Shown here: positions 11,551 through 35,658 of the stretch, one piece after another
How the letters are laid out: each line of letters opens with the position of its first letter
Position numbering within the stretch: position 1 is the first letter of the stretch
Origin: an uncultured Lachnospiraceae bacterium
Lineage (GTDB): Bacteria; Bacillota; Clostridia; Lachnospirales; Lachnospiraceae
Direction of reading: 5' to 3'
Assembly: GCA_947630485.1 (NCBI GenBank)
Contig: CANRHU010000029.1
Coordinates: 1 to 40,690, forward strand
DNA: 40,690 nucleotides
Program-made: the position numbers and the translations under genes
The notes under the pieces: generated by a model
What the model was told of the DNA's origin: nothing
The model's database searches: none
What the model saw: only the letters and a program-made list of their open reading frames with translations

Positions 11551-11588
11551 GAAATACGAACAAAGCGTCACTGGCGCTTTGTTCGCAT
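11551..11588 (+). repeat. Hairpin repeat, copy A (after the SASP gene)
   Basis: The 27-bp core at 11558-11584 is an eleven-pair hairpin with the conserved TCACTGG loop. It is flanked by GAAATAC on the left and GCAT on the right, as in the copies near 25.5 and 35.6 kb. It begins seven bases after the SASP stop and precedes a terminator. Confidence 0.8.
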
Positions 11589-11604
11589 ACTGACGTAATA
11601 CGAC

Positions 11605-11657
11605 AAGAAGCCGTTACTCTATCGATGTTCAATCCATGGAGCAACGGCTTCTTTTCT
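11605..11657 (+). terminator. Intrinsic terminator of the SASP gene
   Basis: AAGAAGCCGTT pairs with AACGGCTTCTT across a 27-nt loop and is followed by TT and a T-rich stretch. The loop is larger than usual. Confidence 0.6.
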
Positions 11658-11758
11658 GCTGCCTTACATTTCCCTTACTTTTGCCGGAAAAACGTGCCGT
11701 GAGACAGATTTTATGGTAGGATAATACAGATTCCCAAAATAAGGAGGGAGGATCTCCC

Positions 11759-12466
11759 ATGAGCGCCGACTATCTGAAACAAAAACGCATTCTCCTGGTC
11801 GATGACGAACCTGACCTGCTGACGCTGGTCGCCAATATTTTACGGCAGGACGGCTACACCGACGTCCGGACCGCCGATTCTTTTGCCAACGCCCTGCATC
11901 AGGCGGAGGTGTCGGCTCCGGAACTAGCCGTCCTGGACGTGATGCTGCCGGACGGCAGCGGCTTCGGGCTTCTGAAACGGCTGCGCGGCTTTACCGACTG
12001 TCCCGTTTTGTTTCTCACCGCACGCGGCGAGGAGGAAGACCGTATCCGCGGCTTCGGTCTCGGGGCCGACGACTACATGGTGAAGCCGTTTTCCCCGAGG
12101 GAGCTTCTGTACCGCATCGCGGCGATTCTGCGGCGCACCTACCGCAGCGAGGATCCCCTCGTGGAGCTTGACGGAAGCCGGATCGACTTTGCCAGGGCAG
12201 AAGTCATAAGAGACGGCGAACAGATTCCTCTGACCGCGAAGGAATTTGCGCTTCTCTCCGCCCTCTGCCGCAACGCCGGCCGCATTGTAACCATCGACGC
12301 CCTCTGCACCGCCGTCTGGGGCGATAATCCTTACGGCTACGAGAATTCGCTGATGGCTCATATCCGCCGCATCCGCGAAAAAATCGAGACCGATCCGTCC
12401 CATCCGGTGTCCCTGGTGACGGTAAAGGGGCTCGGCTATAAACTGATTCTGAAAAGCCGTAAATAG
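11759..12466 (+). CDS. OmpR/PhoB-family response regulator
   Basis: A 235-residue two-component regulator. The receiver domain (residues 1-125) has the acidic pair in LLVDDEPD, the phosphoacceptor Asp in AVLDVMLPDGSG, the Thr in LFLTARG and the Lys in YMVKPFSP, so it is fully equipped for phosphorylation. A winged-helix DNA-binding domain follows, ending in VTVKGLGYKL. The ATG has AAGGAGGGAGG upstream. It lies 38 bp before its partner sensor kinase. The regulated genes are unknown. Confidence 0.95.
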   Translation: MSADYLKQKRILLVDDEPDLLTLVANILRQDGYTDVRTADSFANALHQAEVSAPELAVLDVMLPDGSGFGLLKRLRGFTDCPVLFLTARGEEEDRIRGFGLGADDYMVKPFSPRELLYRIAAILRRTYRSEDPLVELDGSRIDFARAEVIRDGEQIPLTAKEFALLSALCRNAGRIVTIDALCTAVWGDNPYGYENSLMAHIRRIREKIETDPSHPVSLVTVKGLGYKLILKSRK

Positions 12467-12504
12467 ACGAAAGCCGCCCGCAGAGGCGGCAGAATGGAGA
12501 CGCA

Positions 12505-13899
12505 ATGAACAGCATTCTGAAACTGATCCGCCGCTTTGTCGGTATTATGGTTTTGAGTTTTGTTCTTCTGATTCTTCTGAATCTTTCCCTTCTGGCCGCA
12601 ATCGCCGCACGCCAGGCGGCGAACCAAAGTCCCTGGACAATCGCCATGGAAACCGCTCAGGCCTTGAAGCCGGCAGACAGCGGCTTTACGGTGACTTCGG
12701 AAGCCTTCGCGTCGCTTCGCGCCTGCGGCGCCTGGGCCGTTCTGATCGATGAATCGACAGGAGAGGTCGTCTGGCAGACGGAGGATCTGCCGGTCACCGT
12801 TCCTATGCACTATACATACTCCGACATCGCCGCACTGACCCGCGGCTATATCGACAGCTATCCCACCTTCCCGGCCGCGTCCGCTTACGGACTGATGGTG
12901 CTGGGCTTTCCGCGCACCAGCTATTGGAAGCATATGTGGCCAAGCTGGGATTACCAGCTGATCGCCCACGCCCCGCAGATCGCGCTGACGGCGGCGGCGC
13001 TGAATCTGATTCTAATTCTTCTGATCTATCTGACCGCAAACTACCGGCTGCTTCGGTCCGTACAGCCCCTTGCTTCCGGCATCCAGACGCTTCCCTCCGG
13101 GGAGCCCGTCTTCATTCCGGAGCATGGCCTTTTATCGGAACTGGCCTCCAGCCTGAATCGGACCTCCGGTCTCCTCCAGTCGCAGAAATACGAACTTCGG
13201 AAAAAGGAGACCGCGCGCGCAAACTGGATTGCCGGCATCTCCCACGATATCCGCACGCCCCTGTCCATGGTCATGGGTTACGCGGAACAGCTGAAAGACG
13301 ACGCCGCGCTCTCCCGCGGACAGCAAAAAAAGGCCGCCGTCATCCTCCGCGAAAGCGAACGGATGCGGGACCTCGTCAATGACTTAAATCTCGCTTCCAA
13401 ACTCGAATATAACATGCAGCCGGCACATTTGCGGACTGAAAATCTGACCGCCATTGTAAGGCAGGCGGCAGTGGATTTTATCAATGCGGATATCGCCGGA
13501 AAATACCCTGTCGAATGGACCGGAAACCAGCCGCAGATCCCCTGCACCGCCGATGTGGATCGCGAACTGCTGACGCGGGCCGTCATGAATCTCTTTCACA
13601 ACTGCCGAAACCACAACGAAGAGGGATGCACCATTTACATCTCCATCCGCCGCTCGGAAGCGTCCTGGGACATCCGCGTCGAAGACGACGGCGTCGGATT
13701 AAGCGACGAGGAGCTGAACCGTCTGCGCGACGCATCCCAGGGCGCGGCCTGCGGCGCCGGTATTGACGGACAGAGGCACGGCCTGGGTCTTCAGCTGGTC
13801 CGCCAGATCGCCTCGGTCTTCGGAGGGGAAATCCTGATGGATCACAGCAACTATGGGGGATTTTCGGTTACCATTTCTCTCCCCGCGGCGGATACCTAA
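12505..13899 (+). CDS. Sensor histidine kinase, partner of the upstream regulator
   Basis: A 464-residue membrane sensor. Transmembrane helices near residues 12-35 and 152-175 bracket an extracytoplasmic domain of about 115 residues that shows no domain recognised here. The cytoplasmic part has a HisKA dimerisation domain with the phosphorylated His in ISHDIRTPLS, and a HATPase domain with N box (NLFHNCRNH), G1 box (VEDDGVGL) and G2 box (GQRHGLGLQL). The ATG is preceded by GGAGAC. The signal sensed cannot be inferred. Immediately past its stop lies the linker motif of the hairpin repeat family and a bidirectional terminator shared with glgD. Confidence 0.93.
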   Translation: MNSILKLIRRFVGIMVLSFVLLILLNLSLLAAIAARQAANQSPWTIAMETAQALKPADSGFTVTSEAFASLRACGAWAVLIDESTGEVVWQTEDLPVTVPMHYTYSDIAALTRGYIDSYPTFPAASAYGLMVLGFPRTSYWKHMWPSWDYQLIAHAPQIALTAAALNLILILLIYLTANYRLLRSVQPLASGIQTLPSGEPVFIPEHGLLSELASSLNRTSGLLQSQKYELRKKETARANWIAGISHDIRTPLSMVMGYAEQLKDDAALSRGQQKKAAVILRESERMRDLVNDLNLASKLEYNMQPAHLRTENLTAIVRQAAVDFINADIAGKYPVEWTGNQPQIPCTADVDRELLTRAVMNLFHNCRNHNEEGCTIYISIRRSEASWDIRVEDDGVGLSDEELNRLRDASQGAACGAGIDGQRHGLGLQLVRQIASVFGGEILMDHSNYGGFSVTISLPAADT

Positions 13900-13903
13900 G
13901 CGG

Positions 13904-13959
13904 CGCATGGAAATACAAAAAAGCGCCCCAAAAGTTATTTTGAAATGACTTTTGGGGCG
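13904..13959. terminator. Bidirectional terminator preceded by a repeat-family linker
   Basis: The hairpin at 13924-13959 has a 16-pair stem (one G-U) with loop TTGA. It ends sensor-kinase transcripts on the plus strand, and on the minus strand it is followed by a T-rich run for glgD. The 12-bp linker GCATGGAAATAC of the repeat family lies at 13905-13916, six bases after the kinase stop, without an intact hairpin core. Confidence 0.8.
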
Positions 13960-13983
13960 TCCCTCTTCTCTTTCCTTTGCTCC

Positions 13984-15129
13984 TTAGACCACTTTGTGCT
14001 TCGCGATGTAGACCGGGAAGCTGTCGGTGCCCCGAAGCTCCTTGTCGGCCGTGATCGTCACCTTCTTGTCGGTGATCACATATTCCACATCGGCCCCGGC
14101 CTCGATGACCGTATCCTGCATCAGAATGCAGTTCCTGACCTTCGCGCCCTTTCCAATCTGCACGCCCCGGAACAGGATGCTGTTCTCGATCTCGCCCTCG
14201 ATGATGCAGCCGTCGGCCACAAGAACATTCTCCGCCTTCGCGCCCTCAATATAACGGGTCGGGTTATCGTCACGGATCTTTGTGTAGATCGTGCTGGGTC
14301 CGAACAGCGCGTCCAGATTCTCGTCGTCGAGAAGACGCATATTCTCGTCATAATAGCTCTTCAGATCACTGATGCGCGCCACATAACCGTCATATTTGTA
14401 ACCATAGACCTTCACCTTATCCAGATGCGGCGCAAGCATGTCCCTCTCAAAGAACTGCATGCCGCGGACGCTGGCTACCGTGATCATATCGATCAGCAGC
14501 TCGCGGTTGATCACGTAATAATTCATACAGAAGTTCGTGATGCCGTCCTGCGTCGGATTCATATACATATAGGTGACACGGTTCTGCTCGTCCATATCGA
14601 TGGTATAGTACAGATCCATGCCCTGACCGTGAACGAGCTTTGCGGATACGGGAAGTTCATCCTCCGTATACGCCACCGTCACATCGGCGCCGGTTTTAAT
14701 ATGCCGGTCGATCAGCTTATTGAAATCAAAGTTTGCAATGATGTTCGTGTCGGCCAGAACCACATAGGTCTCCTTCTGGCTGCGCAGGAAATCCAGAATG
14801 CTGGCCATGGCCTCCACGCGGCCATTATACAGCTTCACGGTCTTCTGCGCAAAGGGCGGAATGATATTCAGGCCGCCGTTCTTGCGGGCTAAATCCCACT
14901 CGCGGCCGGAGCCCAGATGATCCATCAGGGAATGGTAATTCCTGCGGACGATCAGGGAAATATTGTCAATGCCGCAGTTTACCATGCTGGAAAGGACGAA
15001 ATCAACGACACGGTAACGTCCGCCAAATGGGATCGAGGCCATCAGACGCTCGTTCACCAGCTCCGGCACCAGAGAATCATAACTGTTCGGGAACAGAACT
15101 CCTATTACGTCTGCGTTGGATTTTACCAC
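13984..15129 (-). CDS. glgD: GlgD, regulatory subunit of ADP-glucose pyrophosphorylase
   Basis: A 381-residue GlgC-like protein of the GlgD branch, which in Firmicutes forms a heteromer with GlgC for glycogen synthesis. The nucleotidyltransferase fold is recognisable ([16 protein letters not shown]), but the N-terminal GGxGxR substrate loop is replaced by IGVLFPNSY, as expected for a non-catalytic subunit. A left-handed beta-helix C-terminal domain follows. The start is a GTG that overlaps the glgC TAA by seven bases, indicating tight coupling. Shares a bidirectional terminator with the sensor kinase. Confidence 0.93.
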
Positions 15130-16331
15130 TGCTCCTCACCGCCTTTCACATTATTCCTGACCATGGCGTTCGGCCCGATCTTAGCGCCGTCGCCGATAAA
15201 TACGTTATTGCCTACGGTCGCCACGCCCTTTTCGTCTCCCGTGGGCATAGCGCCGACAATGGCATTCTCTCCGATCTCCACGTTCTCCGCGATAATGCAG
15301 TGCTTGACCACCGCGCCGGAGCGGATAACCGTACCGCCCATAACGACGGCGTCCTCCACCTCAGCGCCTTCCTCCACCTGCACGCCTGCGAACAGGATGG
15401 AATGCTTCACCTTGCCGTAGATACGGCAGCCGTCAGTGATCATGGAATTCTCCACGATGCCTCCCTTGCCGATCTTATGGCCGGTCATGCCGCTGTTGCG
15501 GCTGTAGATCTTCCAGTCGTCATCGAACAGGTTGATGCCGCTGTGCTCCGGATCCAGAACCTCCATATTGGCTTCCCAGAGGGAAGAAATGGTCCCCACG
15601 TCCTTCCAGTAGCCGCTGAAATGGTACGCATACATTTTCCGATTGTCCCGGAACAGGTTCGGGATGATGTTCTTGCCGAAGTCATTCTCAGAATTCGGGT
15701 CGGCCTCATCCTCCTCCAGATACTGCTTCAGGATATCCCAGTTGAAGATATAGATTCCCATCGACGCCAAATTGGACTTCGGCTGCTTCGGTTTCTCCTG
15801 GAACTCGGTGATCCTGTCGTTTTCGTCGGCCACCATGATGCCGAAGCGGGAAGCCTCCTCCCACGGCACCTCCATGACGGCCACGGAGAATTCCGCTCCC
15901 TTCTCCTTATGGTAGCGCAGGAAATCGCTGTAATCCTGCTTACATATCTGGTCGCCGGACAAAATGATGACATACTGAGGATCGTACCTCTGAATAAATG
16001 AGATATTCTGGTAGATGGCATTCGCCGTGCCTTTGTACCAGTCAGAACCGGAAGCCTGCTGATAAGGCGGGAGCACATGGACACCGCCATGAAGACGATC
16101 CAAATCCCAGGGCTGTCCGTTGCCGATGTACTCATTCAGAACCAGGGGCTGATACTGGGTCAGGATTCCCACGGTATCGATGCCGGAGTTGACGCAGTTC
16201 GAAAGCGGAAAATCGATAATCCTGTATTTGCCGCCAAAGGGAACTGCAGGTTTTGCCAGATTCTGGGTCAGCGTATACAAACGGGAACCCTGTCCACCGG
16301 CAAGAAGCATTGCTATCATTTCTTTTGCCAT
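15123..16331 (-). CDS. glgC: Glucose-1-phosphate adenylyltransferase (GlgC)
   Basis: A 402-residue catalytic subunit that makes ADP-glucose from glucose-1-phosphate and ATP, the committed step of bacterial glycogen synthesis. [10 protein letters not shown] provides the nucleotide-binding loop, [15 protein letters not shown] the family signature, and the C-terminal hexapeptide repeats the beta-helix. The ATG is preceded by GAGGGGGAG. It is the first gene of glgCD. The remaining glg genes (synthase, branching enzyme, phosphorylase) are not in the window. Confidence 0.97.
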
Positions 16332-16366
16332 GATAATCTCCCCCTCATATCGTTTGAGTTACTATA

Positions 16367-16395
16367 ATTCTACCATAAAATTGTAAACTTTGATA
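16367..16395 (-). promoter_or_regulatory. Probable promoter for glgCD
   Basis: On the minus strand TAGAAT has a TGn extension (TGGTAGAAT). A weak -35, TATCAA, lies 17 bases upstream. An overlapping TTTACA/TATAGT pair at 15-base spacing is less likely. Confidence 0.4.
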
Positions 16396-16518
16396 CCCTT
16401 TTCGGAAAATATTTTGTAAATTATGGCAAAAAATACAATCGCCGTGGATAGGTGTTGTTATTCTGCCCAAAATGCGATGGTTTTATAAGCGGTCAACCGG
16501 AAACGCAGCGGCGGCATT

Positions 16519-17280
16519 TTATGTCTGTGGATTATGTTCGCGCCCGGCCTCCTCCAGTTCCCGCAGGTCAATCTGCAGTTCTTCCTCCACCTCGCTTCGG
16601 ATCTCCTCGGCGCGGACCGGATCCATATCCGGAAGATTCTCCGTGGAACCAATGCCGAAGCGGCGCAGAAATTCTTCCGTGGTTGCGAAAAGCGCCGGCC
16701 GGCCGGGGGCATCCAGTCTGCCGATCTCCTGAACCAGATTATACTCCACCAGACGGTTCACCGCGTGATCGGAATTGACGCCGCGGATCTTCTCGATCTC
16801 CATACGGGTCACCGGCTGTTTGTAGGCGATGATAGACAGCGTCTCCAGGGCTACGTCCGTCAGCACATGCCGCTTCGGAGCGGCCGCAACACGGATCAGG
16901 TTTTCATAGAACCGGCCGCGGGTACAGAGCTGATAGCTGTCTTCCAGACGGATCACCTCCATGCCGCGGTTCTCCTCCTCATAGCGCTTAAGCAGTCTCT
17001 CCACCGCCTTTTTCGCCACATCCGCAGGCTGGCCGATGGCCGCCGCCAGCTGTTCCAGCTCCACAGGCTGTCCCATCGTGAACAAAACCGCCTCCACAAT
17101 GGCCTCATAATCTGTCTCCGGATTGCCAAGCGGAGCTGGCGGTACATCTGGTTGCTCCTGCGCAGGCTCCGCCTCAGGCGCGTCCGGCTCATGCCGCGCA
17201 AGTTCCGCCTCAAGCGCGTCCTGACGCGCCTGAATGGCCTCTATATCGAATTCCTCATCATCCCATTCTCTGTCCATCAT
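16519..17280 (-). CDS. scpB: Segregation and condensation protein ScpB
   Basis: A 253-residue kleisin-associated winged-helix protein of the SMC-ScpA-ScpB condensin complex, which compacts and segregates the chromosome. The core begins at AIVEAVLFTMGQPV near residue 60 and includes IIAYKQPVTRMEIEKIRGVNSD, the most conserved block of the family. The N-terminal 55 residues are acidic and Pro-rich and look disordered. The start at MMDREWDDEE follows the scpA stop by seven bases with a GGGGGA upstream; longer starts would lie inside scpA. Confidence 0.95.
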   Translation of the reverse strand: MMDREWDDEEFDIEAIQARQDALEAELARHEPDAPEAEPAQEQPDVPPAPLGNPETDYEAIVEAVLFTMGQPVELEQLAAAIGQPADVAKKAVERLLKRYEEENRGMEVIRLEDSYQLCTRGRFYENLIRVAAAPKRHVLTDVALETLSIIAYKQPVTRMEIEKIRGVNSDHAVNRLVEYNLVQEIGRLDAPGRPALFATTEEFLRRFGIGSTENLPDMDPVRAEEIRSEVEEELQIDLRELEEAGREHNPQT

Positions 17281-17287
17281 ATCCGTC

Positions 17288-25352: not shown

Positions 25353-25503
25353 AATCTCCTCCTTCTGCCGCGTTTCCCGCGGCATTCCCGTTTCTATCGT
25401 CCTTCATCATAGAGCGAAAACCTTTAGCGAATCTGAAGCGTTTATGTAAATATTGTGAAAATGATATACCGCCGGCGGATGTTTTTGCTTACTGACGTAA
25501 TAC

Positions 25504-25542
25504 AAACGGAGCGTCACTGGCGCTTCGTTTGCATGGAAATAC
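25504..25542 (+). repeat. Hairpin repeat, copy B
   Basis: The 27-bp core 25504-25530 has a ten-pair stem with one G-U and loop TCACTGG. It is followed by the 12-bp linker GCATGGAAATAC at 25531-25542. It lies on the strand opposite to copies C1 and C2, with the dacF terminator between them. Confidence 0.8.
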
Positions 25543-25584
25543 AAAAACACCCGAAGCAGCGGAAGCTTCCGCCCCTCGAGTGTT
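25543..25584 (-). terminator. Intrinsic terminator of the DD-carboxypeptidase gene
   Basis: On the minus strand a long hairpin (outer nine-pair stem with one wobble, inner perfect GCGGAAGCTTCCGC palindrome) is followed by TTTTTG. It is about 100 bases past the stop, beyond repeat copies C1 and C2. The 329-bp gap 25353-25681 is accounted for by these elements plus an AT-rich stretch (25440-25490), the presumed promoter region of the NEW3 operon; no clear -35/-10 pair was found there. Confidence 0.75.
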
Positions 25585-25597
25585 CTCCTTTCCATGC

Positions 25598-25663
25598 AAG
25601 CGGAGCGCCGATGACGCCCTGCTCGTATTTCCCTGCGAACAAGACGCCGGTGACGCTCCGTTT
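25598..25663 (-). repeat. Hairpin repeat, copies C1 and C2 (after the DD-carboxypeptidase gene)
   Basis: Two 27-bp cores at 25637-25663 (C1) and 25598-25624 (C2) are joined by a 12-bp linker GCAGGGAAATAC. Each pairs internally only imperfectly, but the 5' arm of C1 pairs with the 3' arm of C2 (nine of ten) and the 3' arm of C1 with the 5' arm of C2 (ten of ten with wobbles), giving one long nested hairpin. They start 18 bases past the stop codon. Confidence 0.75.
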
Positions 25664-25681
25664 GTATTATATCTTTTTGCG

Positions 25682-27028
25682 TCAGTTACCTGTCCATACG
25701 CCGTCCGCATCCAGCGTATAACCGTCTGGCGTCACCGTATTTTTAAGCATCGGCCCCTGGTCCCCCACGTAAAACCATTTGCCGTTGTCCAGAACCCAGC
25801 ATTTCGTCGCCATGGCGCCGCTGCTGTGGAAATAATACCAGTCTCCGTTGACAAACAGCCGCCATCCGGTCGCCATATAGCCGTTGGAATCGATCCAGTA
25901 ATCGGCGTCCTCCAAAAGCAGCCACTCGCCTGCGGCGCGGCTCCCATCCGCCTTCACATAGTACCAGCCGGTTCCGTCCTGAACCCAGCCGAACGACTGC
26001 GCGGACGGGGACGGGGCAGGCTGTGTGGCGGGAGATTGGGCAGGCTGTGCGGACGGGGACGGCTGCGCGCTCCCCGAATCCTGAATGGCGGACGGACCCG
26101 CTGAGGGCAGAACTGCCGGACCCGCCGAAGCGGTCCCGCGGGCCGCCATCTTTGCAAACCCGTAATCCAGAAGCGCCTTGGTATCCGTATAGTGCGTACC
26201 CGAAGCCTTCATCACCACGGCGACCAGACGCACGCCGTTTCTCTCCGCGCCCGTCACCAGCGTATTGCCCGCCAGGGATGTGAAACCGGTCTTGCCGCCG
26301 ATGATCCCCTCATAGTAGCGGGAATCGTTCGGATACATCATTTTATGCCCCATGGAAATCGTCCTCACCGCCGACGTCTTCGTGGCCGGGAGCTTGTAGG
26401 ACAGCGTCGTGTCGATCTCCCGCAGGACCGAATTTGCAAAGGCGGCGCGCGCGATCAGCGCCATATCGTAGGGCGTCGTATAGTGGTTGGAATCATTCAG
26501 TCCGTGGGGATTCACAAAATGCGTGTTCGTGCAGCCAAGCGCCGCGGCCTTCTGGTTCATCAGATCGGCAAACGCGGAAATACTTCCCGCCACATGCTCC
26601 GCTAAAGCGTTCCCAACCTCGTTGGCGGACTTCAGAAGCAGCGCGTAGAGACATTCGCGCACCGTCAGCTGATCTCCCTCCACCATTCCCAGAGAGACGG
26701 CCCCGGATTCCAGATTCGTGGTGGCCGTCTTCGAAAATGTCACCGTGGAGTCCAAACTGCAGTTCTCAATCACCAGGAGCGCCGTCATCAGCTTGGTGAT
26801 GCTGGCCGGATAGTACTTCGTATCGGCGTTCTTCCCATAGAGGATCTCTCCGCTGGCCGCATCGATGACTACGGCACCCTGCGCCTGAATCTGCGGCTCT
26901 GAAAGCGCGGCCGCGCCGGACACGCTGCCCGAGGGAGCCGCGTATATCGTCATCTGCGGCTGCAGCGCCAGGCACACCACCAGCGCCGCGGCTGCGATTC
27001 TTCTCTGAAGCAGCTTATGCTCTTTCAT
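25682..27028 (-). CDS. D-alanyl-D-alanine carboxypeptidase with C-terminal wall-binding repeats
   Basis: A 448-residue secreted penicillin-binding protein of peptidase family S11 (DacA/DacF-like), which trims the terminal D-Ala from peptidoglycan stem peptides. A signal peptide ends near YAAPSG. The active-site motifs are SITK, SAN and KTG. A Pro/Ser/Ala/Gln-rich linker leads to about 100 residues of aromatic and Gly-rich repeats (GWYYVKADG, DWYYFHSSGAMATKCW), like choline- or glucan-binding repeats that attach proteins to the wall. The start is uncertain: ATG 27028 has only a weak ribosome-binding site, and a TTG three codons earlier is possible. Lies 43 bp after trpS. Confidence 0.92.
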   Translation of the reverse strand: MKEHKLLQRRIAAAALVVCLALQPQMTIYAAPSGSVSGAAALSEPQIQAQGAVVIDAASGEILYGKNADTKYYPASITKLMTALLVIENCSLDSTVTFSKTATTNLESGAVSLGMVEGDQLTVRECLYALLLKSANEVGNALAEHVAGSISAFADLMNQKAAALGCTNTHFVNPHGLNDSNHYTTPYDMALIARAAFANSVLREIDTTLSYKLPATKTSAVRTISMGHKMMYPNDSRYYEGIIGGKTGFTSLAGNTLVTGAERNGVRLVAVVMKASGTHYTDTKALLDYGFAKMAARGTASAGPAVLPSAGPSAIQDSGSAQPSPSAQPAQSPATQPAPSPSAQSFGWVQDGTGWYYVKADGSRAAGEWLLLEDADYWIDSNGYMATGWRLFVNGDWYYFHSSGAMATKCWVLDNGKWFYVGDQGPMLKNTVTPDGYTLDADGVWTGN

Positions 27029-28336: not shown

Positions 28337-28987
28337 ATGTCACAGGAACAGACAACACCCTCGGATGTTTTCTCCGGACTTCTAAAGGAAAAGGATGCGC
28401 AGGCTCTTGCATGGATCCGCGGCGGCGCGCACGCGCCCTACTTAAGCGGCCTGGTCAGATTCTTTGAGACCCATTACGGCGGCGTGGTCATTGAGGCAGA
28501 ACTATTCGGACTGCCGGATACAGGCGCTGACGCTTCTTTGAACCTCTATGCCATGCAGCTTCATACTGACGGCGGCCGCGATGTTCAGGACGACATCCGT
28601 CCGTCTGCCGAAAGCTCTTACAATCACGAAGGAAACGTACACCCCCGCCCTTCCACGGCCCTGCCGCCCCTGTTATCCGGTCAGGGTTACGCCTGGCTGG
28701 CCTTCTATGACAGACGTCTCTCCCTGCCGGAGATCATCGGTCAGTCGGTAGACATATATTTTCTCCGCGGCCAGCCGTCCCTTCAACCGAAAGACGACGG
28801 CGCGCTTGGCAGCAGCGGCAACCCGATCAGCGGCAGTCCGATTGGCAGCAGCGGTAACCCGATCAACGGCAGTCCGCTTGGCAGCAGCGGTAACCCGATC
28901 AACGGCGGCCCGGGCAGCGAATGCCCCGTCGGCAGCGGCGTCATCCGTCCATCGGAAAGCGAGAGCCTGACGCTGGCAGCATTTTAG
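28337..28987 (+). CDS. Cu/Zn-superoxide-dismutase-like protein with metal ligands lost
   Basis: A 216-residue protein whose framework follows bacterial SodC: VRFFETHYGGVVIEAELFGLPD, then HPxx...LPPLL, then GYAWLAFYDRRLSLPEIIGQSV and a terminal GSGVI. By that alignment most metal ligands are missing: the FHIH pair reads MQLH, the GHYNP His is Ser, the YHAGD His and Asp are Pro and Ala, and the VIIH His is Tyr; HP and one His remain. The GNAG loop is expanded into three 12-residue GSSGNPI repeats. There is no signal peptide. GGAAGGAGG precedes the ATG. The fold is probably kept but dismutase activity is not expected; a spore-coat role is possible given the sigma-K-like promoter. Confidence 0.75.
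   Translation: MSQEQTTPSDVFSGLLKEKDAQALAWIRGGAHAPYLSGLVRFFETHYGGVVIEAELFGLPDTGADASLNLYAMQLHTDGGRDVQDDIRPSAESSYNHEGNVHPRPSTALPPLLSGQGYAWLAFYDRRLSLPEIIGQSVDIYFLRGQPSLQPKDDGALGSSGNPISGSPIGSSGNPINGSPLGSSGNPINGGPGSECPVGSGVIRPSESESLTLAAF
28808..28915 (+). repeat. Three in-frame 36-bp repeats in the SOD-like gene
   Basis: Units start at 28808, 28844 and 28880 and encode GSSGNPISGSPI, GSSGNPINGSPL and GSSGNPINGGPG. They sit where SodC has its short GNAG loop. Confidence 0.9.
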
Positions 28988-29298: not shown

Positions 29299-29335
29299 AA
29301 AAAGGGCGGGCTCTCCGTCGGAGAAGCTCCCGCCC
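29299..29335 (-). terminator. Intrinsic terminator of nrdD
   Basis: On the minus strand GGGCGGG pairs with CCCGCCC, with an inner CTCC/GGAG stem, followed by TTTTTC. It starts 16 bases past the nrdD stop. Confidence 0.9.
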
Positions 29336-29350
29336 TCAGTCCTATATTTA

Positions 29351-31822
29351 TTATTTCCGGCTGTCCGCGAATCGCTTGATATTGCTTGCGTTCACAAATT
29401 TCTCAATCTTTCCGTCCTTCACGAGCACCAGCGTCGGCGCCTGCATAATTCCGAACTCATCGGACAGTTCCGGATTCTCCTCCGCGTCGATCACCTGATA
29501 ATCCACATCCTTTAAGAATTCCTTGGCAATCCTGCAGTTGGGACAGGTCTTGGTCGTAAACAAATAGGTTCCGGAAGCGGAAAGCTGCGGCGCGCCCGCA
29601 CTTGCGGCTCCGGCAGCCGCGTCTTCTCCGGACTTGGCGCCCGCCGCGGAAGCATTCGCATCCGCCGCGCTCCGAAGAATCGCCTGGGCAGTCTTCTCCG
29701 CGACCGTGTCGGCCACATGAACCGCGGCGTCTCCGCCTCTCTTCAGGACGGAATGAGCCACGTCATAGGTCGTGCGGTTCTTGTACTCCTGGGTCTTGCC
29801 CGCGTTCCAGTTCTTCACCGGACGGTAATAGCCGGTGATACGGCTGTAAACCTCGGCCTCATTGCCGCAGATCGGGCAGGTGAAATGCTCGCCGATCAGA
29901 TAGCCGTGATCTTTGCAGATCGAATAGGTCGGCGACATCGTATAGTACGGCAGCCTGTAATTCTCCGCAATGGTGCGCACCAGCTTCGCGGCCGACTTCC
30001 AGGAGGGCAGCTTCTCGCCGAGGAACGCGTGGAACACGGTTCCTGACGTATAGAGAGTCTGCAGCTCGTCCTGAATATCCAGCGCGTCGAAGATGTCCGC
30101 CGTGTAGTCCACCGGCAGATGGGAGCTGTTGGTGTAGTAGGGCGTATCGCCTTCACTTCCGGCGGTAATGATATCCGGATAGCGGCTCTTGTCATGCTTC
30201 GCCAGACGGTAGGAGGTGGACTCTGCCGGCGTGGCCTCCAGATTGTACAGATCGCCGTACAGCTCCTGATAGTCGGACAGGCGCTCCCGCATATGGTTCA
30301 GCACGTCCTTCGTAAACTTCTGGGTCTCCGGATGGGTCAGATCCTTGCGGAGCCATTTCGCATTCAGGCCCACCTCGTTCATTCCCACCAGTCCGATAGT
30401 GGAGAAATGGTTCTCAAAGGTTCCAAGATAACGCTTGGTATAGGGATAGAGACCGTTGTCCAGAAGCTTCGTGATGACCTCGCGCTTGGTCTTAAGGGAT
30501 CTGGCGGAAATATCCATCATGCGGTCAAGTCTCTTGTAAAAATCCGCCTCGTCCTTGGCCAGGTAAGCGATCCTCGGCATATTGATCGTGACGACGCCGA
30601 CAGAACCGGTGCTCTCCCCGGAGCCGAAGAAACCGCCCGTCTTGCGGCGCAGCTCGCGCAGATCCAGGCGCAGGCGGCAGCACATGCTTCGCACGTCGCT
30701 GGGCTGCATATCGCTGTTGATATAGTTGGAAAAATACGGCGTGCCGTATTTGGCCGTCATCTCAAAGAGAAGCCTGTTGTTCTCCGTCTCGGACCAATCG
30801 AAGTCCTTCGTGATGGAGTAGGTGGGGATCGGATACTGGAAGCCGCGGCCGTTGGCATCGCCCTCGATCATGGTCTCGATGAAGGCGCGGTTGACCATAT
30901 CCATCTCCCTCTTGCAGTCCTTGTACTTAAACGGCATCTCCTTGCCGCCGACGATCGCCGGCATCTCCGCCATGTCGTCCGGCACGGTCCAGTCCAACGT
31001 AATGTTGGAGAACGGCGCCTGGGTACCCCAGCGGCTTGGCGTGTTTACGCCGTAGACGAAGGACTCGATGCATTTCTTTACGCTGTCATAATCCAGGTTG
31101 TCCGCCTTCACAAACGGAGCCAGATAGGTATCAAAGGATGAAAATGCCTGGGCCCCCGCCCATTCATTCTGCATAATACCGAGGAAATTGACCATCTGGT
31201 TGCACAGCACGGACAGATGCTTCGCCGGGGAGGACGTGATCTTGCCGGGAATGCCGCCGAGACCTTCCACAATCAGCTGCTTTAAGGACCATCCCGCGCA
31301 GTAACCGGTCAGCATGGACAGGTCATGCAGATGGATGTCAGCGTTTCTATGGGCGTCGGCAATCTCCTTGTCATAAATCTCAGACAGCCAGTAATTGGCG
31401 GTCACAGCGCCGGAGTTGCTCAAGATCAGGCCGCCGACGGAATACGTGACGGTGGAATTCTCCTTCACGCGCCAGTCCTCAACCTTCACGTAGCTGTTGA
31501 CCACATCGCGGTAATCCAGGATCGTGTTTTTCATGTTGCGGATTTTCTCACGCTGCTTCCTGTAGAGAATGTATGCCTTGGCCACATCTGTGTAGCCCGC
31601 CTGCTCCAGCACATGCTCCACGCTGTCCTGAATCTGCTCCACGGTGATCTTCCCGTCCTTCATCTTGCTCTGGAAATCCGCAGTCACACGAAGGGCCAGA
31701 AGCTCCAGAATCTCATGGTTAAACTCCTTCTCCGTGGCTTTAAACGCCTTCTTTATGGCCTCTGTAATTTTAGTCAGATTAAACTCCGCGATCTCGCCGT
31801 CCCGCTTTACTACGCTGATCAT
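29351..31822 (-). CDS. nrdD: Anaerobic (class III) ribonucleotide reductase NrdD with fused thioredoxin-like domain
   Basis: An 823-residue glycyl-radical enzyme that makes deoxyribonucleotides without oxygen. An ATP-cone starts at VVKRDGEIAEFNLTKI (residues 3-90). The catalytic domain follows, then a zinc site (ICKDHGYL...CPICG) and the glycyl-radical loop RITGYYRP with the radical Gly near 664. After a 40-residue Ala-rich linker comes a thioredoxin/glutaredoxin-like domain of about 75 residues with CPNC and a cis-Pro in QAPTL, which could deliver reducing power. No nrdG activase gene adjoins it. AAGGGG precedes the ATG. A promoter with an NrdR-box pair lies upstream. Confidence 0.96.
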   Translation of the reverse strand: MISVVKRDGEIAEFNLTKITEAIKKAFKATEKEFNHEILELLALRVTADFQSKMKDGKITVEQIQDSVEHVLEQAGYTDVAKAYILYRKQREKIRNMKNTILDYRDVVNSYVKVEDWRVKENSTVTYSVGGLILSNSGAVTANYWLSEIYDKEIADAHRNADIHLHDLSMLTGYCAGWSLKQLIVEGLGGIPGKITSSPAKHLSVLCNQMVNFLGIMQNEWAGAQAFSSFDTYLAPFVKADNLDYDSVKKCIESFVYGVNTPSRWGTQAPFSNITLDWTVPDDMAEMPAIVGGKEMPFKYKDCKREMDMVNRAFIETMIEGDANGRGFQYPIPTYSITKDFDWSETENNRLLFEMTAKYGTPYFSNYINSDMQPSDVRSMCCRLRLDLRELRRKTGGFFGSGESTGSVGVVTINMPRIAYLAKDEADFYKRLDRMMDISARSLKTKREVITKLLDNGLYPYTKRYLGTFENHFSTIGLVGMNEVGLNAKWLRKDLTHPETQKFTKDVLNHMRERLSDYQELYGDLYNLEATPAESTSYRLAKHDKSRYPDIITAGSEGDTPYYTNSSHLPVDYTADIFDALDIQDELQTLYTSGTVFHAFLGEKLPSWKSAAKLVRTIAENYRLPYYTMSPTYSICKDHGYLIGEHFTCPICGNEAEVYSRITGYYRPVKNWNAGKTQEYKNRTTYDVAHSVLKRGGDAAVHVADTVAEKTAQAILRSAADANASAAGAKSGEDAAAGAASAGAPQLSASGTYLFTTKTCPNCRIAKEFLKDVDYQVIDAEENPELSDEFGIMQAPTLVLVKDGKIEKFVNASNIKRFADSRK

Positions 31823-31924
31823 CAATAAATCCCCTTTCTTCCCCTCCCACGGGGTCTTCTCAACTGTCCGCTTCTCTTAATCCATTCCGTCTGCCCCCAC
31901 TGCCGCAGAAGCGCCGCTCTTACC

Positions 31925-31953
31925 ATTATAGCAGAGGTCATACAAAAACACAA
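31925..31953 (-). promoter_or_regulatory. Promoter of nrdD
   Basis: On the minus strand a consensus -10 TATAAT lies 17 bases from a -35 TTGTGT that is itself part of the proximal NrdR box, so repressor and RNA polymerase would compete. Confidence 0.65.
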
Positions 31954-31992
31954 TATCTTGTTTTGTATTTTTTCAAAGTCAAGATATTGTGT
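31948..31992. promoter_or_regulatory. Pair of NrdR boxes upstream of nrdD
   Basis: Two 16-bp boxes at 31948-31963 and 31977-31992 resemble the NrdR consensus ACACWATATATWGTGT (about 14 and 13 of 16 positions). Their 13-bp ACACAATATCTTG halves are exact inverted copies of each other. The centre-to-centre distance is 29 bp, near three helical turns. NrdR is known to repress ribonucleotide reductase genes from such tandem boxes; its gene is not in this window. Confidence 0.7.
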
Positions 31993-32022
31993 TAAAATTC
32001 TGTCATGCGCCCAGGCAATTCC

Positions 32023-32059
32023 GGTCCGTCCGTGTGAGTTCACTCACAACGGACGGACC
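32023..32059. repeat. Long stem-loop just past the hflX stop
   Basis: GGTCCGTCCG pairs perfectly with CGGACGGACC; after a one-base bulge TGTGAG pairs with CTCACA around a four-base loop. It starts one base after the hflX stop codon. There is no T-run, so it may stabilise the 3' end or act as an operator near nrdD rather than terminate. Confidence 0.6.
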
Positions 32060-32060
32060 T

Positions 32061-33308
32061 CTACACTAATCTCCCAAACACCTCTGCCGGCACATACGCC
32101 TTCACCCGGATTCCCTCGTCCGTGTACTCTTCCTCCAGAAGCTCTCCATACTCGCGAATCTCCTGAATTCGCCCCGCTTCCCGGTACGCGTAGGTCTTCT
32201 CCAGATAAACCTTCTGCGCCCGCAGAATCTCTTCCAGCGTTTTTAAAAGCGTCTCCATCCCGTCCCCCGTCCGCGCCGAAATCTTTACCTGATAATCCGC
32301 CCGCAAATCCTTAAGAATCACTTCGCGTTCCAGGAGGTCTGTCTTATTAAACACGGTCACAATCACCTTGTCCGCAATCCCCAGCTGCTTTAAGGTCTCA
32401 TAGACAATGTGCATCTGCATCTCCATCTGCGGATTCGCGCAGTCCACGACATGCAGAATGATATCGCAATACTTCGCCTCCTCCAGCGTGCTCTTAAACG
32501 CCTCAATCAGATGATGCGGGAGCTTCCGGATAAACCCGACCGTATCCGTCAAAAGAATCTGCTGTCCGTCCGGCAGCCTTAAGCTGCGCGTCGTCGGATC
32601 CAGCGTCGCAAACAGCTTATCCTCGGCCAAAATCCCCGCATCCGTCAGATCGTTAAGAAGCGTGGACTTTCCCGCGTTTGTGTATCCGACAATCGCCGCC
32701 TGGACCACATGCGCGCGCCCGCGCTGCTGCCGCTGCACCTGGCGGTGCCGCTCCACATCCCTTAAATCTTCCTTAAGCGCTGAAATCCGCTCATGAATCC
32801 GACGACGGTCGATCTCCAGCTTCGCCTCGCCGGGCCCGCGTGTTCCTATACCGCCGCCGAGCCTGGACAGGGAGCTGCGCAGACCAACCAGCCGGGCCGC
32901 CCGGTAACGCAGCTGGGCCAGCTCCACCTGCAGCTTTCCTTCCCGTGTATTGGCCCGCGACGCAAAAATATCCAGAATCACCATGGTGCGGTCCATGACC
33001 TTGCAGTCCAGCGCCTCCTCCAGATTCTTAAGCTGCGCCGGGGACAGTTCGTCGTCACAGACTACTCCCGTAGCCTCCGTCTCCCAGAGAAGCTCCTTCA
33101 CCTCATCGATCTTTCCCTTCCCCAAATAAGTCCCCGGATGAATCTGCTCCCTGTTCTGAATCACGCGGGCCAAGACGACGCCTCCTGCCGTCTTCACCAG
33201 CTCCTCCAACTCATCCAGGCACGCTTTTGCTTCCGTTTCACCTCCGGTATCCACCGAAAGCAATATCACCCTGTCCTGCACATCCTTTATCTCATATAAT
33301 TCCGCCAA
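32061..33308 (-). CDS. hflX: Ribosome-associated GTPase HflX
   Basis: A 415-residue GTPase that binds the 50S subunit and splits stalled ribosomes. The N-terminal HflX domain includes PGTYLGKGK, followed by the signature GGIGTRGPGE, then the G domain with GYTNAGKSTLLN (P loop), DTVGFI (G3) and NKTD (G4). It starts with TTG, well supported by AGGAGG six bases upstream. It is the last gene of the coiled-coil, dUTPase, TPR lipoprotein and HflX cluster, 64 bp after the lipoprotein gene. Confidence 0.95.
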   Translation of the reverse strand: MAELYEIKDVQDRVILLSVDTGGETEAKACLDELEELVKTAGGVVLARVIQNREQIHPGTYLGKGKIDEVKELLWETEATGVVCDDELSPAQLKNLEEALDCKVMDRTMVILDIFASRANTREGKLQVELAQLRYRAARLVGLRSSLSRLGGGIGTRGPGEAKLEIDRRRIHERISALKEDLRDVERHRQVQRQQRGRAHVVQAAIVGYTNAGKSTLLNDLTDAGILAEDKLFATLDPTTRSLRLPDGQQILLTDTVGFIRKLPHHLIEAFKSTLEEAKYCDIILHVVDCANPQMEMQMHIVYETLKQLGIADKVIVTVFNKTDLLEREVILKDLRADYQVKISARTGDGMETLLKTLEEILRAQKVYLEKTYAYREAGRIQEIREYGELLEEEYTDEGIRVKAYVPAEVFGRLV

Positions 33309-33372
33309 AGTTTCCTCCTGTCAGCGTTCTCCTTGCTCCCGCGAAGAGCCTTTTACTGTGAAACAGCCAGCT

Positions 33373-34134
33373 TCAGTCCGCGCGCGTCCGCAGAAAAGCA
33401 ATCTCTTTCTCCACTTCCTCAGTCGGTCCGAATTCCGCGGCATAGGTCTGCAGCGTCCGCAGCGCGGCCGCAAAATCCAGCTTCTTCTCATAGACGGCCG
33501 CCTGATTAAATAGGAGCTTCTCTCTTGCCTCGTCCTCGCAGGCCAAACCTTTTTCAATAAAGGCCAGCGCCTGATCGTACTCTTCGAACTCCAGCTCATT
33601 AAGCGCCAGCTGGTTATAGATTTCTCCATTTCCCGCGCCGTCGTCCACTGCCTGCTGAAAAAGCTCCGTGGCCTCCGCCCCGCGGCCTGCCTCCCGGAGC
33701 GCATCGCCAAGCGCCAGAAGCACCTCCATCGTCTCGCCGCTTTCCGGCTGGGACTTATAAAGCTCCCTGTACTTCTGCCCGGCGTCCTCCAGCTGTCCGG
33801 CCCGGATCCGCGCAGCACAGCAGCGGGTCAGATACTCTGTCTTCTGCCCGTCCGTCTGCCACAGCACATCGTAGGTATCCGCCGCGGCCTCATAGTCCCC
33901 CAGCCGATACTCCGCCTCCGCCCGGTATTTCAGCACATCAAGTTCAAATTCGCCTACCATGCCGCTTGATTTCTCCAGCGCCAGATTCAACGAATCGACG
34001 GCCGCGGCATAATCCCCCGCCTCCATCTGGGCGATGGCCGCCTCCCTGCACTCATATTTTTCCTTCGAACCGCAGCCGGTCATAAGCAGAAGCACCGCCG
34101 CCATGACCGCCAGGTATCGGATTTCTCTCCTCAT
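33373..34134 (-). CDS. TPR-repeat lipoprotein
   Basis: A 253-residue lipoprotein: a short signal peptide ends in the lipobox LMTGC (Cys near residue 20), followed by tetratricopeptide-like helical pairs (AQMEAGDYAAAVDSLNLAL, EYRLGDYEAAADTYDVL, GDALREAGRGAEATELFQQA and ELEFEEYDQALAFIEKGL). Such proteins scaffold other proteins at the outer face of the membrane; the partner is unknown. The start is placed by AGGAGG nine bases upstream; the longer open frame runs through a 30-bp repeat and lacks a signal for initiation. Confidence 0.85.
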   Translation of the reverse strand: MRREIRYLAVMAAVLLLMTGCGSKEKYECREAAIAQMEAGDYAAAVDSLNLALEKSSGMVGEFELDVLKYRAEAEYRLGDYEAAADTYDVLWQTDGQKTEYLTRCCAARIRAGQLEDAGQKYRELYKSQPESGETMEVLLALGDALREAGRGAEATELFQQAVDDGAGNGEIYNQLALNELEFEEYDQALAFIEKGLACEDEAREKLLFNQAAVYEKKLDFAAALRTLQTYAAEFGPTEEVEKEIAFLRTRAD

Positions 34135-34198
34135 CACATGATTCCTCCTATTGCCCCATCCCGCCATTCCGCGCGGACGCGATGACCGCCTTTTTGCA

Positions 34199-34258
34199 GC
34201 GGTATCCGGCTGCTCAGCCGCGGCATCTGCGGTATCCGGCCGCTCAGCCGCGGCATCT
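34199..34258 (-). repeat. Two tandem 30-bp repeats between dUTPase and lipoprotein genes
   Basis: Copies at 34199-34228 and 34229-34258 differ at one position. They begin seven bases past the dUTPase stop, in the 130-bp gap before the lipoprotein gene. Confidence 0.85.
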
Positions 34259-34264
34259 GCCGTC

Positions 34265-34699
34265 TCAGCGAACGCCGGTGCTTCCGAAGCCGCCCCTGTT
34301 TTCCCCGGCCAGATGCTCTGTCGTCTCAAAACAGATCTCCGGCTGGTGCTTCATAATCCGAAACTGACAGATTCGGTCGTTGCACCGGATTTCCGTGTCC
34401 CTCACAGCCAGCGCGGGGAAATACCACTGGTCGCCGTCTCCGCAGTAAGTCTCGTCAATGATTCCGAAATGGTTCGTCTGCAGAATCCCAAAATTCCGGT
34501 ACGTCGAACTGCGCGGCACCACATGGGCCTCGTAGCCCTTGGGCAGTTCCATGGCGACACCCAGCGGGATCAGCCGAAATTCTCCCTTTTTCAGGGAGAC
34601 ATCCTCCGCGGCCCGCAGATCGATCCAGTCCGATTTTCCGTCAATGTACGCCAGCCGGTCAATCTTATCCGTAAAATATTTAATTCGAATGGTTTCCAT
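34265..34699 (-). CDS. dut: dUTP diphosphatase (dUTPase)
   Basis: A 144-residue trimeric dUTPase that converts dUTP to dUMP and pyrophosphate, keeping uracil out of DNA. The five motifs are recognisable: [10 protein letters not shown] (I), [11 protein letters not shown] (II), [10 protein letters not shown] (III, catalytic Asp), RICQFRI (IV) and RGGFGSTG (V, the flexible arm). The start at METIRIKYF follows GGGGAGGAG. Cluster position, 27 bp after the coiled-coil gene, suggests co-transcription from the promoter at 35307. Confidence 0.93.
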
Positions 34700-34726
34700 G
34701 CGCAAACTCCTCCCCTGCCTGCTGCG

Positions 34727-35266
34727 TCAGCAATCCGGATCCTCCTCGATCACTACTCCCTCCGCCGCAGTATCTTCTATATCTTCTGCCTTGACCCCCG
34801 CCGCAGTATCCTCTGCAGCTTCTGCCTTGGCCTCCGCCGCAGCATCCTCTGCAGCTTCTGCCTTGGCCTCCACCGCAATAGCTTTTATATCTTCTGCTTC
34901 GGCCTCCGCCTTTTCCTTCTCCCCAGGCAGAACCGGCCATTCCCTGAGAACCCCGGCCCCGGATTCCTGCCCTCTCGGCGTGCTCTCCGCGGCGGCGCAT
35001 TCCCGAATCTGGCGAATCCGCTCCTTCTTTTCCTCAACCTCCGCCAGTTTCCGCTGGATCGCCTCAAAATGCTTCTCAAACTTTCCCGCATCCACAGCCC
35101 TTTGTCTCCGCATGGAATACATCGTCATGCCTACAGATACATAAAGCTCCTTTATCTCCTTTTCGAGAGCGGCAATCATTCCCCGCAGCTTCGCTTCCTC
35201 AAGAAGAGCAGAAGCCTTCTTCTCAAACCGATCAAGCTGTCTGGCAAGGTTCTTCTTAACTCCCAT
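34727..35266 (-). CDS. Coiled-coil protein with acidic Ala/Glu/Lys repeat tail
   Basis: A 179-residue protein. The first 95 residues form an amphipathic coiled coil rich in Lys and Glu (LARQLDRFEKKASALLEE through EKKERIRQIRECAAAE). The C-terminal third is a 12-residue repeat of the form (A/V)KAEAAEDTA, encoded by 36-bp DNA units, ending in an acidic stretch. No enzymatic motif was seen and no function is known. GGGGAATGTGAG precedes the ATG. It is the first gene behind a near-perfect sigma-A promoter. Confidence 0.75.
   Translation of the reverse strand: MGVKKNLARQLDRFEKKASALLEEAKLRGMIAALEKEIKELYVSVGMTMYSMRRQRAVDAGKFEKHFEAIQRKLAEVEEKKERIRQIRECAAAESTPRGQESGAGVLREWPVLPGEKEKAEAEAEDIKAIAVEAKAEAAEDAAAEAKAEAAEDTAAGVKAEDIEDTAAEGVVIEEDPDC
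34761..34904 (-). repeat. Four in-frame 36-bp repeats in the coiled-coil gene
   Basis: Units start at 34761, 34797, 34833 and 34869; the middle two are nearly identical and the outer ones diverged. Each encodes twelve residues of the acidic tail. Confidence 0.8.
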
Positions 35267-35306
35267 CTCACATTCCCCTCATTCGTACAGGCTGCACCTT
35301 CATTCC

Positions 35307-35335
35307 ATTATACGTTTTGCACTTTCCACTGTCAA
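35307..35335 (-). promoter_or_regulatory. Near-perfect sigma-A promoter of the coiled-coil/dUTPase/lipoprotein/hflX cluster
   Basis: On the minus strand consensus -35 TTGACA and -10 TATAAT are exactly 17 bases apart. The leader is about 34 bases. An array of 14-bp repeats lies directly upstream. Confidence 0.8.
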
Positions 35336-35351
35336 TCCTTTCAGGATGTCC

Positions 35352-35437
35352 GACCGGGGAAAGTATGGCCGTGGAAAGTACGGCCGGGAAAATACAGCCG
35401 GGAAAATACAGCTGGGAAAGTACGGCCGGGAAAGTCC
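35352..35437. repeat. Six tandem 14-bp repeats
   Basis: Units of the form GGCCGGGAAAATAC (14 bp, one of 15) run from 35352 to 35437, ending about 17 bases upstream of the promoter at 35307-35335. Together with the terminator and hairpin repeats past 35516 this accounts for most of the 394-bp gap 35267-35660; 35438-35510 holds nothing recognised. Confidence 0.85.
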
Positions 35438-35515
35438 CTAAAACGAGTCTCTAAGACAAAGTCACCAAACGGCGGCATAAAAGACGCCGCGCAAGCGAAC
35501 GGTGCGGGCGCAAAA

Positions 35516-35557
35516 AAGAAAAATGAGACTGTTGCGAAAAGCAGCCTCATTTTTCTT
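35516..35557. terminator. Bidirectional terminator downstream of copA
   Basis: AAGAAAAATGAG pairs with CTCATTTTTCTT over twelve bases, with an inner GCTGC-type stem. On the minus strand it is followed by a further T-run. It lies beyond repeat copies D1-D3, closing the copper operon. Confidence 0.85.
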
Positions 35558-35565
35558 CTCCATGC

Positions 35566-35658
35566 AGAAAGGGTGCCAGTGCACGCTTTCTGTATTTCCA
35601 TGCAAACGGAACGCCAGTGACACTCCGTTTGTATTTCCACGCGAGCAGGGCGCCAGCC
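35566..35658 (-). repeat. Hairpin repeat, copies D1-D3 (after copA)
   Basis: Reading on the minus strand from the copA stop: a half core D1 (35643-35658), linker GCGTGGAAATAC, full core D2 (35604-35630), linker GCATGGAAATAC, full core D3 (35566-35591), then GCAT. D2 and D3 have unrelated stem sequences that each pair well, and both keep the CACTGG loop. D1 lacks its 5' arm because the copA coding sequence occupies that position. Confidence 0.85.

Follow-up and report, generated by a model that had tools for sequence, protein, structure and literature searches.

What is the hairpin repeat of about 39 bp that recurs between the genes of a 40,690-nt contig of an uncultured Lachnospiraceae bacterium (assembly GCA_947630485.1, contig CANRHU010000029.1, positions 1 to 40,690, in the following called the window)? 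The original prediction, made by a model from the sequence of this contig, saw the copies between stop codons and terminators and offered two readings, a function in the 3' untranslated region (3'UTR) of the mRNA or a mobile element similar to the repetitive extragenic palindromic (REP) sequences that tolerates only such sites. According to our analysis, which supports this interpretation in part, the repeats probably form a new family of mobile DNA palindromes which are not autonomous and resemble REPs and the Rickettsia palindromic elements (RPEs). Near genes the units seem to be tolerated rather than to be functional.

Anatomy of the repeat unit

Each unit consists of the sequence AATAC, a left arm of 10 nt, the loop TCACTGG, a right arm of 10 nt and the sequence GCAT, with the hairpin comprising 27 nt. 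Two types of tail follow GCAT, either GGA, giving a unit of 39 bp or exactly 13 codons, or ACTGACGT, giving a unit of 44 bp, and both are followed by AA. The 5' end of the array is AATAC in 162 of 205 arrays. At the other end AA comes next in 139 of the 143 arrays with a tail starting exactly with GGA and in all 27 ACTGACG-tailed arrays; all remaining arrays have degenerate tails. The proposal that GGAAATAC is a conserved 5' flank has to be corrected, as only AATAC is conserved there and GGA belongs to the 3' tail. Neither GTAG at the unit end, which is formed by AATAC on one side and GCAT plus GGA or ACTGACGT on the other, nor a terminal CGTC was found in the aligned units. The unit is also no intrinsic terminator by itself: directly after the hairpin comes GCATGGAAA or GCATACTGACGTAA and no T tract. 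In the genome of the window all 11 units with the right arm CGCGTTTTTT have the ACTGACG tail and all 13 with the right arm CACCCTTTCT the GGA tail, and therefore subfamilies exist. Where several units form a cluster in this genome they are arranged head to tail (29 of 31 clusters).

That the stem arms vary and mostly still pair was borne out by a covariation test on an alignment of 25 seed sequences. Stem positions are paired in 95.2% of the cells compared to 83.7% in shuffled alignments, and the covariation score of 0.432 (shuffles 0.225) was reached by none of 500 shuffles. The number of further pair types is not above that of the shuffles (459 of 500 at or above the observed value), and pairs changed on both sides exceed them only mildly (9 versus 6.9; 23 of 500). 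This weak excess fits, as expected, a covariation carried by a few discrete arm types. The two arms of a unit belong together, with a mean mismatch of 1.54 that rises to 3.92 when arms are reshuffled between units. At least four arm mismatches are present in 12 of the 109 units of the same genome, in several of which the loop connects two known arm types, and these hybrids look like products of slippage from one loop to its neighbour.

Copy number and distribution

The 3.26-Mb genome contains 87 exact copies of the 12-nt linker GCATGGAAATAC and none of its reversed pattern. With a covariance model built from the 25 units, 184 matches at E≤1 were obtained genome-wide (150 of 2976 candidates scored), some of which represent one palindromic unit counted on both strands. 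Four of the six window copies named in the original prediction belong to the 25 seed sequences; therefore the linker count serves as a check independent of the model. In 1.19 Mb of sequence from this genome 210 matches were obtained at E≤0.05, the best 150 of which represent 128 distinct units grouped into 91 clusters. The copies named beforehand are thus real, all of them being present with scores far above chance, and the expected many further genomic copies exist. Two identical 35-mers, found at 6 and 7 separate loci of this genome, are read as recent copying.

The later counts use two alignments, A2 with the best 150 from 210 matches and A4 with the best 150 from 202; many of the 60 and 52 weaker matches outside them are opposite-strand duplicates. 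The 206 arrays derived in this way contain the same or orthologous loci twice and are reduced to 187 loci after merging. Some stretches of the genome itself and all loci of the named relatives were chosen because they bear repeats, so that densities are biased. Genes were predicted by a self-written caller based on codon usage, and for the terminators a self-written finder was used as well.

The 26 genomes of the genus fall into ten with 58-164 matches, five with 1-11, one with a single weak match and ten without any (E≤1e-4; 150 candidates scored for each genome, with matches on both strands included in the count). Because the repeat reaches high copy numbers in some species and was not detected in sister species, gene presence and absence can be used in the search for the enzyme that moves it. 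In a sample of the family (150 genomes from 149 genera, stricter filters) only genomes G000 and G014 are rich. Two further genomes gave 1 and 2 weak matches, respectively. A GTDB scan returned, among the matches listed, uncultured Lachnospiraceae metagenome-assembled genomes (MAGs) named Lapin and four Zoogloea loci. Lapin is French for rabbit, and a rabbit-gut origin of these MAGs is taken from that name. The Zoogloea matches (L097, L110, L144, L161), one stretch in four genomes, lack the unit hairpin; they were regarded as coincidence and excluded from the match set of the relatives. The linker-plus-loop pattern has no match in viral contigs, and one 99-bp array, the sole query used here, none in plasmids and phages. 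A limited literature search found neither the linker string nor a title or abstract start on such a family in Lachnospiraceae. The largest contigs of G000 and G014 (L033-L051, L272-L311) are poor in units and the smaller contigs rich in them, which could reflect an uneven density or assembly breaks at the repeats.

Filled and empty sites

Comparison of related loci reveals insertions of precise length. Loci L061 and L072 differ from L132 and L142, respectively, by exactly two units, L150 from the empty L152 by two units and one codon (+81 bp), and L296 from L134 by one unit. At most the dinucleotide AA is clearly common to both ends in these empty/filled pairs, and any target duplication of this size would be indistinguishable from element sequence. 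Such pairs disfavour the idea that the family consists of tandem repeats made by slippage without any transposition. This would suit the arrays of exact period and the units with at least four arm mismatches, in several of which both arms are near other known arm types. However, it explains neither the precise new insertions nor the identical units dispersed over many loci, and can hardly be the right explanation.

We further looked at the arrays of the window's genome for which both flanks could be aligned within 1.5 kb in two relatives that were not selected for hits, G014 (0.8 Mb) and G019 (0.4 Mb). The unit is absent from 9 of 9 such regions in G014 and from 5 of 5 in G019, which is itself a low-copy genome. 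These 14 comparisons represent 13 distinct arrays; four of the comparisons are intragenic, and two concern one beta-galactosidase gene of G014. The result also bears on the possibility that the unit is a DNA site bound by a protein that organises the chromosome, a site which spread and was then kept by selection. Stems free to vary beside a constant loop and linker would be suitable for a protein which binds structure. Nevertheless, we consider such a site very improbable, as it is absent or rare in 16 of the 26 species of the genus, empty in the two relatives sampled, and also present inside genes.

Position relative to genes and terminators

Only 11 of the 91 clusters overlap a gene, though 87% of the sequence is coding, and in the wider sample 180 of 206 arrays are located outside genes. 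The predicted bias towards stop codons is clearly visible. Two neighbours are present for 77 intergenic clusters, and 38 of these are no more than 60 bp away from a stop (null 26%, p 9e-6). The vicinity of starts is depleted, with 11 clusters at the same maximal distance (null 30%, p 0.002). With respect to the gene of the adjacent stop 52 units are antisense and 36 sense, and in tandem gene contexts the numbers are 34 and 16 (p 0.015).

The order stop, element, terminator does not hold as a general rule. Of 172 intergenic arrays, 25 are placed after a terminator and 24 before it, 4 are flanked on both sides and for 88 no terminator was found; 21 have no adjacent stop and in 10 the stop is more than 200 bp away. 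Nonetheless the arrays are close to terminators: in the terminator-bearing regions 47 of 64 are within 20 bp of the stem (expected 14.5, sd 3.2), or 44 of 61 after merging duplicate loci (expected 13.7). Arrays which follow a terminator within this distance have their 3' end directed to it in 31 of 31 cases (29 of 29 merged), compared to 8 of 16 (7 of 15 merged) for those before a terminator. The 3' flank on the unit strand is A-rich, and therefore a T tract on the other strand is the likely target. Insertion at the T tract of terminators would thus explain the bias to 3' ends without any RNA function. The terminator flanks represent a clear case in which seeming partners of an element look like insertion targets.

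Is the unit a functional RNA?

In a selected RNA helix G·U pairs are expected to be more common than A·C oppositions. In the units of the window's genome we counted 49 G·U and 55 A·C, in the 287 gapless units of all groups 147 and 178 (p 0.096), and in the 254 units remaining after merging duplicate loci 125 and 146. When only the 226 units with at most two mismatches are considered, the counts are 66 and 94, a mild tilt which, read from the opposite strand, would be in favour of G·U. By these counts the unit strand carries no sign of selection as RNA. A screen of the whole window against Rfam at the gathering cut-off gave no match apart from one tRNA; sub-threshold matches at 25480-25690, mostly to miRNA families, were taken as hairpin noise.

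A 3'UTR hairpin that stabilises the mRNA or aids termination could account for the enrichment near stops and beside terminators, for the covarying stem and for those arrays which are common to relatives. It does not agree with the G·U counts, with the lack of a sense-strand preference, with terminators on either side of the arrays, with the 14 of 14 empty orthologous regions, with the units inside genes or with the missing Rfam family. The 3'UTR role is therefore not supported, and we regard it as improbable.

In-frame copies inside genes

Tolerance of gene ends only, which had been part of the mobile-element reading, turned out to be wrong, because 26 of the 206 arrays are intragenic (8 from the genome of the window, 15 from the named relatives, 2 from G014 and 1 from G019), or 20 of 187 after merging duplicate and shared loci. 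The span of all 26 is divisible by 3 bp. The unit length is 39 bp in 43 of 43 intragenic units versus 244 of 271 elsewhere (Fisher p 0.035; merged loci 35 of 35 versus 219 of 245, p 0.055). The ACTGACG tail, which shifts the frame, is found in none of the 26 arrays inside genes versus 30 of 179 outside (p 0.017; merged loci 0 of 20 versus 29 of 166, p 0.047). Five of the six reading frames are used, on the same strand by 8, 7 and 2 arrays and on the opposite strand by 7 and 2. The frame containing TGA is used by none of the 26, but this gives no independent proof, because the gene caller needs open frames and the in-frame state is thus partly built in. Therefore the independent proof has to come from the comparison of homologues.

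A beta-galactosidase (L061) has exactly 26 extra residues in comparison to its homologues in L132 (80% identity) and L316, and the EPSP synthase of L072 exactly 26 in comparison to that of L142 (78% identity). A further beta-galactosidase (L079) has one extra block, which aligns as 26 residues against L298 and as 27 against L132 and L316. For other genes the picture is less clean. The homologues of the rsuA-like gene of the window vary in length at the loop with the unit and do not show a clean 13-residue gap, an ABC protein with a unit has only a distant homologue (24%) among the compared sequences, and for the GNAT, PtsI and ZnuA genes with units no homologue was found in the sequence compared. 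According to Pfam, the insert of PtsI falls between two domains, and that of the ABC protein lies just before a stretch matched by further ATPase models. The enzymes with clear homologues represent natural protein pairs with and without a 26-residue insert.

The mobilising enzyme

Four transposase families were tested in the genus and none of them tracks the repeats, so that the mover is probably none of these four. Y1_Tnp is present in four of the ten rich genomes (in G000 as a broken fragment only), in one low-copy genome and in five repeat-free genomes. The other six rich genomes gave no Y1 match; these genomes are incomplete, and the flanks of the Y1 genes in G007, G011 and G014 were not inspected. 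With the same incompleteness, RVT_1 is missing from the rich genomes G003 and G007, and among the rich genomes OrfB_IS605 is found in G012 only and DEDD_IS110 in G000, G007 and G011 only.

These data are relevant for the possibility of a true REP/REPIN family, moved by a REP-associated tyrosine transposase (RAYT) of the Y1 type that was lost or is encoded in unassembled parts. The short palindrome, the high copy number, the 3' location and a recognition independent of the stem suit the Y1 mechanism, Y1 genes exist in G007, G011 and G014, and a Y1 remnant lies about 100 bp from a unit. On the other hand, six rich genomes without and five repeat-free genomes with a Y1 match do not fit, the unit has no GTAG tag, and 29 of 31 multi-unit clusters are head to tail. 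We consider a RAYT-driven family rather unlikely. The remnant itself (L031; G000:C33:31116-31271), which by eye we take to be IS200-like, was discarded as the mobilising gene since it is a truncated pseudogene, located in the window's own genome, without a genus-wide association. Likewise, a 1.4-kb segment of L138, located at the orthologous site of a unit from the window's genome, was considered as an autonomous partner and rejected, because its open reading frames (ORFs) look like ordinary cellular genes; judged by eye and without a family search, two of them resemble genes for a STAS-domain anti-sigma antagonist and its partner.

A model for the spread of the units

A family of mobile palindromes, the reading we prefer, could work as follows. 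The units would move as single-stranded or extruded hairpins and would be recognised by structure, loop and foot, not by the stem sequence. An AA dinucleotide might serve as the insertion site, frequently within the A/T tracts next to a terminator, with no long target duplication being formed, and re-insertion at the unit's own AA end would build the arrays. If slippage then occurred from the conserved loop of one unit to that of its neighbour, hybrid hairpins with unmatched arms could result.

Several points weigh against this reading. Besides the failure to find a mobilising enzyme, the merging of duplicate loci weakens both tests for frame constraint to p of about 0.05, and the caller's demand for open frames has to be kept in mind. 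Loci selected for repeats show arrays common to relatives, in total 21 related and 4 identical pairs, where the identical ones include one G014 sequence taken twice and two arrays of one locus; examples are the locus L070/L138/L170 and an intragenic array in L111, L136, L141 and L172. No gain or loss of a unit between near-identical strains was shown, and the loci which are 95-100% identical (L094/L109, L102/L120, L148/L163, L098/L115, L156/L142), again repeat-selected, share their arrays. Finally, the arrays L070 13627-13665 and L138 2689-2766 from two species have a common 3' junction (GCATACTGACG beside the same terminator) but different stems, each of them paired, which simple transposition does not explain; either the stem was replaced or insertion occurred repeatedly at one site.

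As a separate observation, the sequence around the shared arrays of L148/L163, L102/L120 and L094/L109 (CANQGA or CANQFR versus CANREE) is 98.7-100% identical, which is above most of the loci compared in the genus. Such near-identical MAG loci could be due to recent transfer, to close relatives or to cross-contamination of bins.

As a tentative idea, which goes beyond the family assignment and which we hold with considerable reserve, the unit may be an independently evolved mobile hairpin of the Bacillota. It would be moved as single-stranded DNA by a so far unrecognised enzyme which reads the hairpin shape, the loop and the foot instead of the stem sequence, and would be drawn to the A/T tracts next to terminators. 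With its length of 13 codons and its stop-free frames the unit would go on supplying enzymes with peptide insertions that leave the frame intact. The two arms of a stem would be renewed together, so that an older and a newer copy at a single junction could have different stems, each still complementary.

Repeat copies in the window

One copy was missing from the original list. It is located at 5449..5487 (plus strand, E 1.3e-4 with the covariance model) within a gene for an RsuA-like RNA pseudouridine synthase (5244..6155, minus strand). This unit is in frame, translated as PCGKVASGTFSVL, and falls into a length-variable loop of the protein; its arms pair poorly, with 5 of 10 positions not Watson-Crick.

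The intergenic loci had been placed behind genes for a SASP, a sensor kinase, dacF and copA. Pfam confirms a SASP, a histidine kinase, a D-Ala-D-Ala carboxypeptidase and a heavy-metal P-type ATPase, while the names dacF and copA stem from the original prediction only. A unit with a perfect 10-bp stem (GAACAAAGCG/CGCTTTGTTC) is present 5 bp past the SASP stop (11550..11588, plus strand, E 8e-16), followed at 11589..11601 on the same strand by the second tail type ACTGACGT (11589-11596) and AATAC. The leftover linker reported at 13905..13916 past the histidine kinase stop is real as well, an exact match to GCATGGAAATAC on the plus strand without a hairpin.

At the carboxypeptidase locus two head-to-tail units on the minus strand (25594..25671; 25633-25671 with E 0.006 and 25594-25632 with E 7e-13) are located between the stop and the terminator, their 3' end being directed to the latter. 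On the plus strand, 25491..25542 comprises ACTGACGT (25491-25498), a unit (25496-25534, E 8e-14) and GGAAATAC. This unit lies beyond the terminator (about 25545-25588) and points at it with its 3' end from the far side, so that the claimed order of stop, element and terminator at all loci of the window is broken by this copy. Beside the stop of the heavy-metal ATPase two further head-to-tail units are found (35562..35638, minus strand; 35600-35638 with E 4e-15 and 35562-35599 with E 2e-10), again with the 3' end toward the terminator, and a partial third one, the tail end of a hairpin, touches the stop codon (35639..35658, minus strand). The latter was identified by sequence only and not scored with the model.

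Other repeats of the window were noted in addition. About 120 bp from the array at 35562 there is a tandem repeat with a period of 14 bp and about six copies (GGAAARTACRGCCG-like, 35358-35442), in which GGAAAATAC is similar to GGAAATAC, the linker of the array, and may be derived from it. Two 36-bp tandem repeats are located inside ORFs, one at 34759-34938 in an ORF without a Pfam match (34727-35266, minus strand) and one at 28787-28912 in the ORF 28337-28987 (plus strand).

Comparison with known systems

Rickettsia is the best-known case of palindromic inserts that lie in frame in proteins, and we know of no mover for them. The family described here brings such inserts to a different phylum. 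The RPEs have a size of 105-146 bp or about 150 bp and occur in frame in genes and also between genes (PMC2229807, PMC10969869). The Lachnospiraceae units likewise are palindromic, dispersed, intergenic as well as in frame inside genes, but they differ by the 39-bp unit, the interchangeable stems, the tandem arrays, the preference for terminators and the host.

Bacterial miniature inverted-repeat transposable elements (MITEs) such as RUP, NEMIS, ERIC and Bcr1 are also small non-autonomous mobile palindromes. However, MITEs are 70-300 bp in size with terminal inverted repeats of 15-30 bp (PMC3733652), target duplications are listed for several and the transposase of a parent insertion sequence was proposed for RUP (PMC2229807); our unit has 39 bp.

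The REPs of the GTAG superfamily are palindromes of 20-40 bp which pair with RAYTs, and intragenic copies are known; their hosts are given as Proteobacteria, Cyanobacteria, Chloroflexi and the PVC group, and the terms Firmicutes and Clostridi- are absent from the main text of that study (PMC3733652). They resemble the present 39-bp palindrome in its high copy number and its location mostly outside genes near 3' ends, and are distinguished from it by their GTAG foot and by the missing Y1 match in six of ten rich genomes. The CGTC REPs, including RPE-4 and RPE-6, are without a dedicated transposase, have intragenic copies and rarely form clusters (PMC3733652). Short palindromes, intragenic copies and the lack of a dedicated transposase among the four families tested are common to both, but in our units CGTC is located in the stem beside the loop instead of forming an end tag, and clusters are common. 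We therefore file the family as a new variant of the REP/RPE-like palindromes, outside the GTAG and CGTC superfamilies.

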